Of a DNA stretch of 64,000 bases, positions 9,268 to 15,315 are shown in pieces. The stretch spans positions 886,661 through 950,660 of the forward strand of contig NZ_CP016474.1 in assembly GCF_001693255.1 (NCBI RefSeq), written 5' to 3'. Under the pieces are notes generated by a model. The model ran no database searches. It was not told the origin of the DNA and saw only the letters and a list, made by a program, of their open reading frames with translations. The DNA comes from Picosynechococcus sp. PCC 7003 (GTDB taxonomy: Bacteria; Cyanobacteriota; Cyanobacteriia; Cyanobacteriales; MRBY01). The position numbers and the translations under genes were made by a program. How positions within the stretch are numbered: position 1 is the first letter of the stretch; every line of letters starts with the position of its first letter.

Positions 9268-10332
9268 TTATTTGGGTTGAAACAATTGATAAAATCGGGC
9301 AAATTTGGGAATGTCTTCTTCGTGACCCAAAACCACTAAAATATCCCCAGATGTCAACATTAATGTTGGACTAGGGTGGGCAATAAATTCCCCTTGAAAC
9401 CGTCGTAAAGCCACCACAATAAAGGCCCCTTTGCCACGAATTTCTAGCTCCCGGACTGTTTTTCCCACGAGGGATGATTGGGGGGCGATCGCCAACTCGA
9501 TCATCTGCACATTAATTTGTTGCAAGAGATCATTCAGTTGCTCCTGTTGGGAAGACTGACTAAAAAAATCCGTCGCGGGCGGTGTCGTAATCAAATTAGC
9601 CATGCGCGCCCCACTGACACTGGCGGGCAAAATGACGTGGTTTGCCCCCGCTAACCGGAGCTTTTTTTCGGTACTGGGTACTTCCCCTCGCGCCAAAATC
9701 ATTAAGTCTGGGTTCAGTTCCCGGGCGGTCAAGGTAATAAACACATTGCTGGCATCGCTATCGAGCACCGTCGCTAGGGCCTTGGCCCGCCGAATGCCTA
9801 ATCCCTGCAAAATCAGTTCGTCTGCTGGGTCTCCTTCTTTCGTCAAATAACCCCGCTGTTCGGCGATCGCCAATTGTTCTGGATCAATACTGAGCACCAC
9901 AAAGCCTTGTCCCGAATCCTCAAGTTTTTGAGCGAGAATCTGGCCAATATAACCAAAGCCACAAATAATAATGTGACTTTCTAAATTAGAAATACTTTTA
10001 CGTTGTCTTTCTGCCTCAAACGCCCGATTAATCTCCCCTTCTGTCACCATTTGCACAAATCCTCCCACCCCGTAGATTGCTGCCGATGTCCCCGCTAAGA
10101 TGACAAAAATTGTAAAGAGCTTCTCTGGTGTTGTCTCGAGGGGTTTTACTTCCCCGTATCCTACCCCAAACACTGTGATCACCACCATATAAAAGGATTC
10201 CAGGGCAGTCCAGCCAAAAAGCATATAGCCGCAAATCGCAATCACAATGGTGATAAAAAAAAAGATCGACCCAGTTGCCACCCGCTGAAAAGGGGTTTGG
10301 GAAAATTGAGGTGCCGCGTGGGGACGATCCAT
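9268..10332 (-). CDS. Two-helix potassium channel with RCK (TrkA-N/TrkA-C) domain
   Basis: The 354-residue ion channel has helix 1 (SIFFFITIVIAICGYMLFGW), a pore loop with VITVFGVGYGEVKP, helix 2 (KLFTIFVILAGTSAAIYGVG), then a Rossmann-type RCK domain (HIIICGFGYIGQILAQKLE) and a TrkA-C domain with SGDILVVLG near the end. The filter is GVGYG rather than the textbook TVGYG; I take it to be a potassium filter of the bacterial RCK type. It sits 70 bases upstream of amt on the same strand. Its first 85 codons and leader are repeated about 2.5 kb away at 12609-13125. Confidence 0.9.
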   Translation of the reverse strand: MDRPHAAPQFSQTPFQRVATGSIFFFITIVIAICGYMLFGWTALESFYMVVITVFGVGYGEVKPLETTPEKLFTIFVILAGTSAAIYGVGGFVQMVTEGEINRAFEAERQRKSISNLESHIIICGFGYIGQILAQKLEDSGQGFVVLSIDPEQLAIAEQRGYLTKEGDPADELILQGLGIRRAKALATVLDSDASNVFITLTARELNPDLMILARGEVPSTEKKLRLAGANHVILPASVSGARMANLITTPPATDFFSQSSQQEQLNDLLQQINVQMIELAIAPQSSLVGKTVRELEIRGKGAFIVVALRRFQGEFIAHPSPTLMLTSGDILVVLGHEEDIPKFARFYQLFQPK

Positions 10333-10600
10333 ACCCTGAGTAACTTAAAGCGCTTCTGATGATCACCCTAGAGTATGGCAGTTTCTCTCAATCAAGCTTG
10401 TATCTAATTTAGCTTCCCTGAAAATTACAGTTTTCTGGAGTCTAAGCCTAACCTTTTACTGGAAATTTTTTCCCCTAGAAAAATTCGATCTATATGCCCA
10501 TTCTTGTGGTCATTTTCGTCATAATTTATAGTTTTTTTACGAGGCTAAATAATAGCGTTAAACAAAAAAATCCCATACCTGAGAGAAATGGAACGCAATC
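10075..10600. repeat. Duplication copy A: K+ channel 5' end plus leader
   Basis: This stretch matches 12609-13125 in the same orientation. It covers the first part of the channel gene and the whole gap in front of it. Near-identical runs include TGCCACCCGCTGAAAAGG and ACGATCCATACCCTGAGTAA; the match weakens in the outer leader but is still followed through AGGCTAAATAAT and the poly-A before the pnp terminator. Copy A has the intact channel gene and a damaged terminator hairpin; copy B has the broken channel gene and the intact terminator. Confidence 0.88.
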
Positions 10601-10671
10601 AATCCACCTAGAAGTAGTGATATCTTATCCTACATGCCGCAAAGAAGATCAGAGGATGGAATGTAGGAGAT

Positions 10672-10803
10672 TAGGATTAATTTTGATGGTAGACAAGTGA
10701 GAGTCACCGGAGAAAATTTCTGTAGTTCAGCAATGACATTAGTTATTTTTTTAAGGATATAAAAATGAGTTTGTAAGACTTAGTTAATAGCTTCTACCAC
10801 CAC
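10672..10803 (-). pseudogene. Decayed remnant of pnp (polynucleotide phosphorylase)
   Basis: Read on the minus strand, these 132 bases line up with pnp positions 13603-13735, which encode [20 protein letters not shown]…DVIAEPKEL…TIKIDPD. Shared blocks include GTCATTGCTGA and the paired CATCAAAATTAATCC against CATCAAGATTGATCC. Most differences are changes towards A or T, and the frame is lost. The KH and S1 parts of pnp (about 440 bases) are deleted between this remnant and the channel leader. Its end overlaps the last codons of the outer-membrane gene. Confidence 0.8.
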
Positions 10804-12535
10804 CTAATAACCACGTTAAATTAAAACCAACGCTCACATCATCGTCAGATTGATGAATCAAACTACCAATATTTCCTTTTCCTGCGGCATTCGTACCATA
10901 AACCCCTAAACCAAAATTGGACTTAGGAAATAGATAACGTGCACCAGCCGCCCAAACAATGGGATCATTACTTACCATAGGAGTCACTTCGCCAATCAAC
11001 TGTAGTCCTGGAGATAATTGTAGATTAACACCTAAACCTGTACCAATAAGAGTTTCATCCCCAAAAAATCCCGCCTTAGGATTAAACATAAAAGTAATTG
11101 CATCGTTAGCTGAATAAGAAAAAATTGTTTCAGCCAAAAATAAACCTATACCATCATCATCAGAGTTGCTGGCATCCTGAAATGCACCTCGAATAGCCAA
11201 TGAAAAAGGATCACCTATAGCTTGATTTAAAAAATTAAACTTAGTGGCTGCTCCTAGTTTCATTGAATTACCAATGGGCTGATTATTGTCCGCTAATTGT
11301 TGAGCAGTGAGCTCTATTTGTGCATTATCACTTAGACCATAACCGATTTGAATATTACCACCACTACCAATTGCTCCATCAAATAGAAACATTTCTTTTC
11401 TTAAGGTATTAGGGCTGCTGAGGAGTATACCATCAAACACTAACTGCTTTTCCCGATCGTTCATAGAAGGGAGAAAGCGCTCAGAAAAACTGCTACGATA
11501 GTTATTATTAGAACCAAGAGTATATTTAAGATTTGCTCCTACACCGACGCTATCACCATCAGATGGAAAGGTTAATAATTTAGTAGCGGGAGTATTACCT
11601 AAACGATTTGTCACATACATATCCAAACTAACATTAGGGCTATGTAAATAACTAAAACCAGCGTTCCAAACTAGATTTTCCTTAATCTTTTCTGTATTGG
11701 AAACGCTATTGCCGCCAGAAACTTCTATCGGATAATTGACATCAGCTAAAAGACCAAATTTTTCCCCTATTTTGAGATTAAATCCTGTACCAATGTTGAA
11801 GAAGGTGCCGTAAAAATCGTCATCATTGACAGTATCAGGGAAAACTGTAAATCCAGCTGCTAAATGCCATTGACTATTGTCAGTCAAATTGTAAGTCATA
11901 GGTATTTGAACAGTACCCGCTAATGTATTTTCGGTTGTATTATTTTGAGATTTAACCTTTATCCACTCTAGGGAACTAACTATGGCAATATTGTAAGAAG
12001 GCTCGTCAATGAATCTATACTTTAGACTAGGTGCTAAAGAGAAAACACCAAACTTTATATCTGCATTGGGATTTGTAACATTATCAATGTCATCTAAAAA
12101 AGATAGATCAAGATTAAACTGTAAATTTTCAGCTATGCCATATTGAACAGAGGCATTATAAACTTCTAATCCCAAACCATTTCCTTGAGAATTAGGACGA
12201 AATATCGTAGCTCCCAAACCAGTTTTTACGGTTCCTTGTGGCAGCATATTGGCCGACTCGATCGTCATTGGTTCTAAAAAATTGAATTCGAAAGTACTAG
12301 TTGAATATTCAATGACTTGATTTTCTACTACAACTTCTTCTTGACGATCAAATTTTTCTTGTTCAACAATATCTGAAATTAGAATCTCAGCACTATTTTC
12401 TAAATCGAAAATATCAGTATTTGTAGAGCCTCTAAACATCGAAGCTTCGTTGACTTCATCTGCTACAGCCACGGCAAAAAAATTAGTCATCACATTGATC
12501 AAGAAAAGGTATAAGCTCAATTTTTTTATATTCAT
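10784..12535 (-). CDS. Predicted outer-membrane beta-barrel protein of unknown function
   Basis: The 583-residue protein has an N-terminal signal peptide (KLSLYLFLINVMTNFFAVAVA, cleavage probably before DEV) and then a long series of alternating hydrophobic/polar strands with many aromatic residues and N/D-rich turns, typical of a transmembrane barrel (for example SVQYGIAENLQFNLDLSFL, NIGTGFNLKIGEKFGLLADV). I do not recognise a named family. The gene is far more AT-rich than its neighbours and lies between duplicated DNA, so it was probably brought in by integration. Its final residues and stop (GGGRSY-stop) fall inside the pnp-derived sequence, so the original C-terminus may have been replaced. 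Confidence 0.75.
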   Translation of the reverse strand: MNIKKLSLYLFLINVMTNFFAVAVADEVNEASMFRGSTNTDIFDLENSAEILISDIVEQEKFDRQEEVVVENQVIEYSTSTFEFNFLEPMTIESANMLPQGTVKTGLGATIFRPNSQGNGLGLEVYNASVQYGIAENLQFNLDLSFLDDIDNVTNPNADIKFGVFSLAPSLKYRFIDEPSYNIAIVSSLEWIKVKSQNNTTENTLAGTVQIPMTYNLTDNSQWHLAAGFTVFPDTVNDDDFYGTFFNIGTGFNLKIGEKFGLLADVNYPIEVSGGNSVSNTEKIKENLVWNAGFSYLHSPNVSLDMYVTNRLGNTPATKLLTFPSDGDSVGVGANLKYTLGSNNNYRSSFSERFLPSMNDREKQLVFDGILLSSPNTLRKEMFLFDGAIGSGGNIQIGYGLSDNAQIELTAQQLADNNQPIGNSMKLGAATKFNFLNQAIGDPFSLAIRGAFQDASNSDDDGIGLFLAETIFSYSANDAITFMFNPKAGFFGDETLIGTGLGVNLQLSPGLQLIGEVTPMVSNDPIVWAAGARYLFPKSNFGLGVYGTNAAGKGNIGSLIHQSDDDVSVGFNLTWLLGGGRSY

Positions 12536-12608
12536 GGCAGTAGCTAATTGATTAATTTACATAAAAATAATGCCTTAAATCATATCTAGATCTTTTTTTT
12601 AAGTCAAT

Positions 12609-12865
12609 GATGGTTGCCGATGTTTCCGCTAAGATGACAAAAATTGTAAAGAGCTTCTCTGGTGTTTCCTTTAGGGGGGTTTCTTCCCCATATCCCACCC
12701 CAAACACCGTGATCACCACCATATAAAAGGATTCCAGGGCAGTCCAGCCAAAAAGCATATAGCCGCAAATCGCAATCACAATGGTGATAAAAAAAAGATC
12801 GACCCAGTTGCCACCCGCTGAAAAGGGGTTTGGGAAAATTGAGGTGCAGCGTGGGGACGATCCAT
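12609..12865 (-). pseudogene. Truncated, frameshifted copy of the potassium channel 5' end
   Basis: The sequence from the ATG at 12863-12865 repeats the start of the channel gene at 10332. It is very similar through the pore (VVITVFGVGYGEETP) and helix 2, then stops matching at about codon 85 near 12609. An eight-A run at 12789-12796 replaces the nine-A run of the intact gene, a one-base loss that breaks the frame after residue 23. No RCK domain is present. It cannot make a working channel. Confidence 0.88.
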
Positions 12866-13125
12866 ACCCTGAGTAACTTAAAGTGCTCCCGATGGTCACC
12901 CTAGAATATGACAGTTTCTAGCCGCCCAGCTTGTATCTAATTTAGCTTCCCTGACAATCCAACTTTCCTGGGGTTTAAGCCTATCCTTGTGCCGAGGATT
13001 ATTCGCCAGAGAAAAGTTTAGTCTGTTTGTTCATTCTTCTGGCCGTTGTTGCCATAATTCATCGCTTTTTTACAAGGCTAAATAATGGCATTAAACAAAA
13101 AAATCCCCCAAGTTACTTGAGGGAA
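12866..13125. repeat. Duplication copy B: channel leader and pnp 3' flank
   Basis: Continuation of the direct duplication of copy A (10333-10600) on the other side of the outer-membrane gene. No gene is seen. It holds the leader of the broken channel copy and, at its right end, the working terminator of pnp. Confidence 0.8.
13097..13124 (-). terminator. Intrinsic terminator of pnp
   Basis: On the minus strand CCCTCAAG-TAA-CTTGGGGG forms an 8-bp stem followed by ATTTTTTTG, 46 bases past the pnp stop. The equivalent hairpin in duplication copy A (10571-10585) is broken. Confidence 0.85.
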
Positions 13126-13170
13126 ATTGAGTTAAATGAAAACACTGAAAAACAGCGATGTTTTATGGCT

Positions 13171-15315
13171 CTATTGAGCAGCAACTCGGGCCGCGGCAGC
13201 TTCATCTGGGTGAATTCCAAGGCGTGTGAGGTTAATGCGTCCTTTGTTGTCAATTTCGCGCACTTTAACCACTACTTCATCACCAACGGCAACTTCATCT
13301 TCGACTTTGCCCACGCGGCCTTCTGCCAGTTGCGAAATGTGAATCATCCCTTCTTTACCCGGCATAATTTCCACGAAGGCACCGATCTGGATAATACGGG
13401 TGACTTTACCGAAATATACATCCCCTTCATTGAGCTTACGGGTCATGTTTACGATCAGCCGTTTGGCTTTTTCGGCATTTTCCGATTCAGAGGAGGCGAT
13501 CGTTACGGTACCGTCATCGGCAATATCCACCTTGGCACGGGTTTGCTCAGTAATCCCTTTAATGGTTTTACCACCAGGGCCAATGACCATCCCAATTAAA
13601 TCGGGATCAATCTTGATGGTGAGCAGACGGGGAGCGGCTGGGGACAATTCCTTCGGCTCAGCAATGACATCGGTCATCTTTTCGAGGATATGGAGACGGG
13701 CCGGTAAGGCTTGCTTAATGGCTTCTGCCACCACTTCAACGGCCAGGCCAGTGATCTTCATATCCATCTGGAGGGCGGTAATTCCGTCAGCTGTCCCGGC
13801 AACCTTAAAGTCCATGTCGCCGAGGAAGTCTTCAATCCCCTGGATATCGGTGAGGATGCGAACTTCTTTTCCTTCTTTGATCAGCCCCATCGCGGCACCA
13901 CTCACGGGCTTGGCAATGGGTACCCCGGCATCCATTAGGGCCAGGGTAGAGCCACAAACGGAACCCATGGAGGTGGATCCGTTGGAAGATAAGACTTCAG
14001 AGACGACCCGAATGACGTAGGGAAATTCATCCTTCGGCGGCAATACGGGTAAAAGGGCGCGTTCGGCCAAGGCACCGTGGCCAATCTCCCGGCGGCCAGG
14101 CGATCGCATTGGGCGAGTTTCACCCACGGAGTAGGGGGGGAAATTGTAATGGTGCAGGTAGCGTTTTTCGTCGGAGGGATGCAAATCATCCATTTCCTGG
14201 GCATCACCGGGCGTCCCAAGGGTGGCAATGGATAAAACCTGGGTCAAGCCGCGATTAAATAGACCACTACCATGGACAGCTCTCGGTAACACAGCCGTGC
14301 GGCAAGAAATGGGGCGCACTTGGTCTAGTTTACGACCATCAACCCGGACTCCATCTTCGACGATTTGGCTCCGCATCAGCTTTTTCGTCAGCGCTTTGAA
14401 GGTGTTGTCAATGAGCTTGGGTTCTTCTGTGGTCTTCACCCGCAGTGGCGCATCCTCTGGCAGGGCTTCGATGGCCTCAATAATTTCTGTTGCTTTGATT
14501 TCATCGAGGTCGGCATCGCGACCGTTTTTGTCTAGGTCAAATTGACTCAGGACTTTTTTGATCTTGTCAGTGGCGCGATCGCCAATGAATTTTTCTAGCT
14601 CCTCATCCTTAGCGGGCGGTTCAGCACTGACCATTTCAAGGCCGAGTTCCTTCATCAGCGAACGCTGGGCCTCGATCAACTCTTGGATCGCTTCGTAGGC
14701 AAAATCAATCGCCTCGATCATGTCTGCTTCTGGCAACTGATTGGCCCCGGCTTCAACCATGATCACACCGTCGGGAGTTCCAGCAACCACAAGGTCTAAA
14801 TCCCCATTCATCATTTCCCGGTAAGTAGGATTCAGGATGAAATCATCCCCCACTAAACCAACCCGGACAGCAGCCATCGGCCCATAGAAAGGTAAACCTG
14901 CGAGCAATGTGGCCACGGAAGCCCCTGTCACAGCGAGGACATCCGGCGGTACTTCTTCATCGAGGGAGAGGGTTGTGGCAACGATTTGAATATCGTCTCG
15001 CAACCACTGGGGAAATAGCGGACGCATCGGTCGGTCAATGAGGCGCGAAATGAGCGTTGCCCGTTCTGGAGGTCTACCTTCTCTTCTTAAATAACCACCA
15101 GGAATCCGTCCTGCTGCGTATAATCGTTCTTCGTAATCTACCAGTAAAGGTAGAAAGTCAATCCCTTGTCTGCCAGGAGCTGTCGTTGCACTAACTAAAA
15201 CCGCTGTATCTCCTGATTCAATTAAAACTGACCCGCCGGCCTGAGGCGCAAACAAACCTGTTTTTAGTCGGATTTCTCGTCCATCGAAAGAAATCGACTG
15301 AATATGTTCTTGCAT
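13171..15315 (-). CDS. pnp: Polynucleotide phosphorylase (PNPase)
   Basis: Phosphorolytic 3'-5' exoribonuclease that also adds heteropolymeric tails in cyanobacteria. The 714 residues hold two RNase PH cores (about 1-230 and 310-545; [15 protein letters not shown] and [21 protein letters not shown] near the active site), a KH domain ([11 protein letters not shown] at about 570) and an S1 domain ([21 protein letters not shown] at about 625-690). The length is normal. Divergent from the ribosomal operon that starts at 15908. A decayed partial copy of this gene lies at 10672-10803. Confidence 0.97.

Follow-up and report, generated by a model that had tools for sequence, protein, structure and literature searches.

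A putatively foreign, predicted tandem-barrel gene in Picosynechococcus that takes its last residues and stop codon from an out-of-frame copy of pnp

Organization of the locus

The window analyzed here is a 64,000-nucleotide stretch of the Picosynechococcus sp. PCC 7003 genome (G000; contig NZ_CP016474.1, positions 886,661 to 950,660), and coordinates refer to this window unless another locus is named. Read along the minus strand, the locus comprises, in sequence, pnp, a truncated channel copy, the barrel gene, a decayed pnp fragment, a repeated pnp-channel intergenic stretch, the intact channel gene, amt and putA. The features considered below are the following.

13171-15315, minus strand: intact pnp (polyribonucleotide nucleotidyltransferase), 714 amino acids
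12609-12905, minus strand: truncated second copy of the K-channel 5' end with its upstream region, ending after channel codon ~87
10804-12608, minus strand: inserted segment, made up of the barrel gene and a leader of ~73 bp (35.3% GC against 47.3% for the window)
10784-12535, minus strand: barrel gene, 583 amino acids, with two predicted tandem 12-strand barrel repeats (about residues 88-345 and 362-578)
10811-10834, minus strand: codons 568-575, which encode the beta-signal octet SVGFNLTW ahead of the junction
10784-10804, minus strand: end of the barrel gene, codons 578-583 (GGGRSY) plus the TAA, with likeness to pnp from base 10803 toward lower coordinates (18 of the 20 bases of 10784-10803 identical to pnp 13715-13734)
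10674-10803, minus strand: decayed pnp-prime remnant, counterpart of pnp 13604-13734 (Pnp residues about 528-570)
10333-10592, minus strand: duplicated pnp-channel intergenic region, matching about 12870-13130 by alignment and followed immediately by the intact channel gene
9268-10332, minus strand: intact K-channel gene with a TrkA/RCK-like part, 354 amino acids

Alignment places the barrel gene between direct repeats of a pnp-3'/channel-5' segment (12609-13734 and 10075-10803). The target copy spans ~1.1 kb, and its partner, which lacks the pnp part matching about 13131-13603, is shortened to 729 bp. A promoter-like TTGACT-17-TATGAT element (12579-12607, minus strand) begins at the insert edge and is conserved in G002, a second species of the genus, and a promoter scan of the region returned 10 promoter-like sites against 9.6 expected from shuffles, that is, no excess. 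The truncated channel copy (12552-12899, minus strand) keeps the pore region with a filter-like TVFGVGYG and is devoid of the RCK part. Its G002 counterpart (locus L024, 3677-4051) is an open frame of 124 amino acids whose own end is borrowed from the barrel leader, a mirror image of the barrel/pnp end described below; in the window, the frame is shifted by a single-base difference within a run of T, and 115 amino acids are left.

The barrel protein and its distribution

The two halves of the barrel protein (residues 88-345 and 362-578) are homologous to each other (hhalign probability 98.8, E 4.3e-17, 201 columns), and the predicted model comprises 24 antiparallel strands, 12 per half, with each half aligned to solved 12-strand barrels. 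The N half superposes on KdgM with a Z of 19.6 (rmsd 1.6 over 171 residues) and the C half with a Z of 15.0 (rmsd 2.7 over 166 residues). From these models we read the protein as a single chain that folds into two consecutive 12-strand barrels, probably the product of an internal duplication. A single 24-strand barrel would be a possible arrangement, although it is disfavored by how closely the N half closes up on KdgM. In the models each half resembles the KdgM-type 12-strand porins (PDB 4pr7, 4fqe), and these porins transport acidic oligosaccharides; the present protein differs in having two barrels per chain and in its identity to KdgM of 7-12%, and other 12-strand barrels (EstA, NanC, FapF and more) score nearly as well as KdgM or better. 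A fold match for the whole chain, sought with Foldseek, was rejected, as the TM-scores of 0.15-0.24 and rmsd values of 15.5-24 among the matches listed point to shared strand packing only. At the family level, Pfam OMP_b-brl (PF13505) reaches 27.1 bits, below its curated cut-off of 28.7, and DUF5777 (PF19089), a membrane-bound beta-barrel domain, reaches 25 bits against a cut-off of 23.1 over residues 170-276 only. NCBIfam gave no family for the protein, and a sequence comparison with solved structures yielded no match up to an E of 1.

The barrel occurs in two of the six genomes of the genus (G000 and G002); across the order, 26 of 388 genomes have it (E up to 1e-15), and its nearest relatives lie in another family (49-61% identity) and in a cyanobacterial MAG (60%). 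This distribution, together with the GC content of the insert (35.3%, compared with 52.0% for pnp), suggests that the barrel gene is of foreign origin; its absence from the other four species could also reflect loss. The barrel loci of two relatives have comparable values (34.0% and 35.9% GC). Since the decayed pnp-prime/intergenic stretch is equally low (35.5%), we treat base composition as supportive of a foreign origin and nothing further. A plasmid source was considered and set aside, the one match being a distant one from Loktanella (25.7% identity).

The end of the barrel gene and its likeness to pnp

The barrel frame closes with codons 576-584, TTA-TTA-GGT-GGT-GGT-AGA-AGC-TAT-TAA, and the protein ends ...WLLGGGRSY. 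Likeness to pnp sets in at 10803, within codon 578 (10802-10804), one base off the pnp frame. An earlier, sequence-only reading of this DNA had claimed that the last codons and the stop of the barrel gene come from the pnp remnant, and that this end aligns with pnp codons in another frame; both claims are borne out, the second in that the AEAI(K/N) part is read one base off. The 18 matches in 20 bases exceed anything obtained from dinucleotide shuffles of those bases placed anywhere in pnp (300 shuffles per threshold), where at least 14 matches were reached 18 times, at least 15 four times and at least 16 never. The similarity also extends past the twenty bases, with 10698-10803 aligning to 13629-13734 and 94 of 129 aligned bases identical between 10674-10803 and 13604-13734. 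When the 120 bases from the junction are compared with pnp, the score is 60, and the maximum among 1000 shuffles is 29. Translated searches recover Pnp residues 528-569 in the window remnant (E 1.7e-6) and residues 528-551 in the orthologous G002 remnant (E 3.8e-5). Twenty bases on their own are short, which is what a chance resemblance would have in its favor, but with the 120-base score beyond all 1000 shuffles and with translated matches in two genomes, chance can be practically dismissed. The alignments confirm that the barrel gene takes its last four to five residues and its stop from the pnp copy, out of the pnp frame. The clear pnp-derived part is residues 580-583 (GRSY) and the TAA, as Gly578 and Gly579 could be native given that the closest duplication-free homologue also has LLGG.

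The origin of the stop is illuminated by reading intact pnp in the barrel frame, which gives RSx in all six genomes of the genus and a stop immediately after it in five: SGGRSH-stop (G000), GGRRSD-stop (G002), CGCRSN-stop (G001), CHCRSD-stop (G003) and CNCRSY-stop (G005), with CDCRSHQQ and no direct stop in G004. In the junction frame the codons for AEAI(K/N) read R-S-(H/D/N/Y) and then TAA. Thus the stop came ready-made from these codons with no new mutation needed, and the conserved Pnp residues AEAI(K/N) tend to give the RS-x-stop end. The GG ahead of RS agrees with the present-day pnp of G000, not with that of G002. That a stop follows so rapidly is unremarkable, because off-frame entry into this pnp meets one within 6 codons at 36% of positions (median 10 codons); an in-frame reading of pnp would have continued for 187 codons.

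C-termini of homologues and the fate of the last strand

The comparison of C-termini drew on 27 loci, from which the window (L001), G002 (L002) and L085 were removed to leave 24 rows. L085 was left out as the front-half frame of a split gene had been taken: the barrel homologue in G371 (L084 and L085; C70:205631-207138) is divided into two frames. The weak partial matches L007-L020 and L023 lie outside the 27 loci, as do L021, L022 and L084 (the front half of the gene split in G371), and L007, L021 and L022 do not end in GGRS either. Since L064 and L065 share one C-terminus and are probably one organism, the 24 rows probably represent at most 23 organisms.

In G002 the junction is the same and the barrel ends ...WLLGGGRSD, with five of the six tail residues identical to those of G000. 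The sequence-only reading had further suggested that the junction makes a new protein end, which any duplication-free homologue ending in GGGRSY would have contradicted. No such case was found, as GGRS is absent from the last 10 residues of all 24 homologue rows without the duplication. A new end accords with the duplication-free homologues, which stop at the same place with other residues; the nearest of them end WLLGGQSVDE (L064/L065, 60%), WLLGNN (G045 and G067, about 51%) and WLLGK (G145, 49%). The neighbors of the barrel gene are also different in two of these homologues: in G045 they are frames that, read from their translations, are presumably alpha/beta-hydrolase-like and uvrA-like, and in L064 they are, presumably and on the same footing, msrA/msrB-like.

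The suggestion in the same reading that the native C-terminal strand signal had been replaced is not supported. The beta-signal consensus quoted in PMC10945584 is polar-x-G-x-x-[aromatic/hydrophobic]-x-[aromatic/hydrophobic], and SVGFNLTW (residues 568-575) fits it and lies upstream of the junction in codon 578. Of the 24 rows, 22 have this octet at the equivalent position (the exceptions are L006 and L083), and Gly570 is shared by all 19 aligned sequences. The structure alignments drew on 19 of the loci. In both AlphaFold2 models, which are of moderate confidence (mean pLDDT 70.9 and 74.9), the last strand spans residues 568-578 and residues 580-583 have a pLDDT under 50; in the C-half model these are numbered 209-219 and 221-224, to which 359 is added for the full-length protein. 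It appears from sequence and models that only the short post-strand tail was exchanged and that the native strand signal was kept.

We also considered whether the borrowed tail changed or replaced the C-terminal signal recognized by BAM and so gave the protein a new property. The end is indeed unlike those of the homologues, with an aromatic last residue (Tyr) in the window, and the tail is nearly identical in two species. However, a complete beta-signal octet precedes the junction, the last strand stops at residue 578 ahead of the low-confidence residues, the last residue in G002 is Asp and hence not aromatic, and the eight residues that follow the octet in the window protein fall within the 2-14 found in homologues. 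A new property is thus quite improbable. Given a complete last strand of the kind recognized by BAM upstream of the join, and homologue tails of 2-14 varied residues, the borrowed tail would seem to have little or no effect, and it resembles a scar left by evolution more than a novel function, with the five shared tail residues leaving weak constraint possible.

A proposed order of events

The order in G002 is pnp, truncated channel copy, barrel, pnp remnant, channel and amt, the same as in the window, and both junctions fall at the same bases in the two genomes (channel codon ~87 and pnp codon 528). With two identical junctions in a second species, a single event before the G000/G002 split is the simplest account. 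Very probably, then, a low-GC tandem-barrel gene was inserted between duplicated pnp-3'/K-channel-5' segments before that split and was ended by the stop of the pnp copy. A low-GC foreign gene would have arrived with its leader and nearly its whole reading frame, without its own stop, and would have integrated with duplication of a target of ~1.1 kb. One possible route is a single crossover with a circle that bore both the gene and the target segment; another is a tandem duplication into whose seam the gene was inserted. The barrel frame would then have overrun the insert edge into the truncated pnp copy and been closed after about five borrowed residues, and the pnp copy would afterwards have lost about 470 bp and decayed. 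No empty site (pnp followed by the channel, no insert) is present among the six genomes of the genus, so the duplication on insertion is not seen directly and we infer the route. Four of the six have pnp without a nearby channel; two of these, G003 and G004, carry a close channel copy at another site, beside amt. In G004 the channel gene is adjoined by frames that we take to be IS630-like transposases (L089 6277-8963), which may account for the altered gene order of that genome.

A two-step course has a lesser but real chance of being correct: the barrel gene would have come in complete with stop and 3' flank, and a subsequent deletion, still ahead of the species split, would have joined its end to the pnp copy. 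Deletions did occur here, as the pnp copy had a large internal one (13131-13603 missing), and the junction lies within a few codons of the position at which homologues stop; on the other hand, no intermediate is found and the fused end is identical in both genomes, and for that reason the data do not separate the order of events. Very improbable is an independent duplication in G000 and in G002, each with its own barrel allele. It would fit the greater likeness of the channel copies within a genome than between genomes and the strongly different barrel middle (dS 1.2-2.0), but both junctions are at the same bases, the barrel ends and leader align across them, and the likeness of the channel copies within a genome is explained by gene conversion between direct repeats, the different barrel middle by allele exchange.

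Synonymous divergence between G000 and G002 is 0.39 for pnp, 0.46 for the channel and 0.48 for amt, and along the barrel gene it is 0.82 for residues 1-95, 1.2-2.0 for residues 96-500 and 0.62 for residues 501-577, the saturated values being rough. Over residues 101-200, the window protein shares 65-68% identity with L064, from a distant MAG, and 38-40% with G002. The high divergence of the middle and the closer kinship of residues 101-200 with L064 make it likely that the barrel middle (about residues 96-500; 11037-12250) was exchanged by recombination while both ends, including the chimeric one, were retained. Among the 5' copies of the channel (10075-10332 and 12609-12875, with the G002 copies in L024), 26 informative sites are shared within a genome and 4 between orthologues, which suggests that these copies evolve in concert through gene conversion between direct repeats. 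A speculative and rather doubtful extension is that the tandem double-barrel gene spreads among cyanobacteria as a cassette consisting of this gene and nothing else, through insertion with long target duplication, and that it keeps its chimeric, out-of-frame end from pnp while its middle is allele-swapped, as expected of a surface protein under phage or grazer pressure.

Comparison with known systems

A literature search by topic, rather than by locus name, found no description of this locus; among the matches listed, judged by title or the start of the abstract, none dealt with tandem barrels, no paper was found on C-terminal insertion signals or on partial duplication with a new stop, and those listed on fusion and duplication did not appear to bear on this case. 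The locus would offer a clean two-species example of a transferred gene that loses its own stop on arrival and is closed by a conserved host gene read out of frame. No harm from the borrowed end is visible, as the barrel assembly signal lies just upstream of the join. The locus also carries a warning for annotation: residues at the very end of such proteins should not be taken for features of the family.

In its arrangement the barrel/pnp locus resembles insertion with long target duplication, reportedly described by Nobusato et al. in 2000 (Gene 259:99). The likeness consists of a gene between long direct copies of its target, beyond the scale of a transposon. As far as the cited portions of two papers extend, the known cases are mostly restriction-modification genes in Helicobacter, and the link to restriction-modification is a frequent association rather than a requirement (PMC3031569, PMC1643837). 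Here, in contrast, the gene encodes an outer-membrane barrel and the host is a cyanobacterium; the only gene in the insert is the beta-barrel, with no restriction-modification gene there. The event is also an old one, with one pnp copy decayed and the empty site not found in the six genomes of the genus. The second parallel is the loss of a stop codon, which gives new C-termini from adjacent non-coding DNA (Andreatta et al. 2015, PMC4494051), with stop-codon shifts also treated by Vakhrusheva et al. 2011, as cited in PMC4161906. Judged by the excerpts of these sources, what is shared is a short new C-terminus from sequence that is not the gene's own coding sequence; what sets the barrel gene apart is that its new end would be due to a recombination junction into an out-of-frame gene piece with a ready-made stop.
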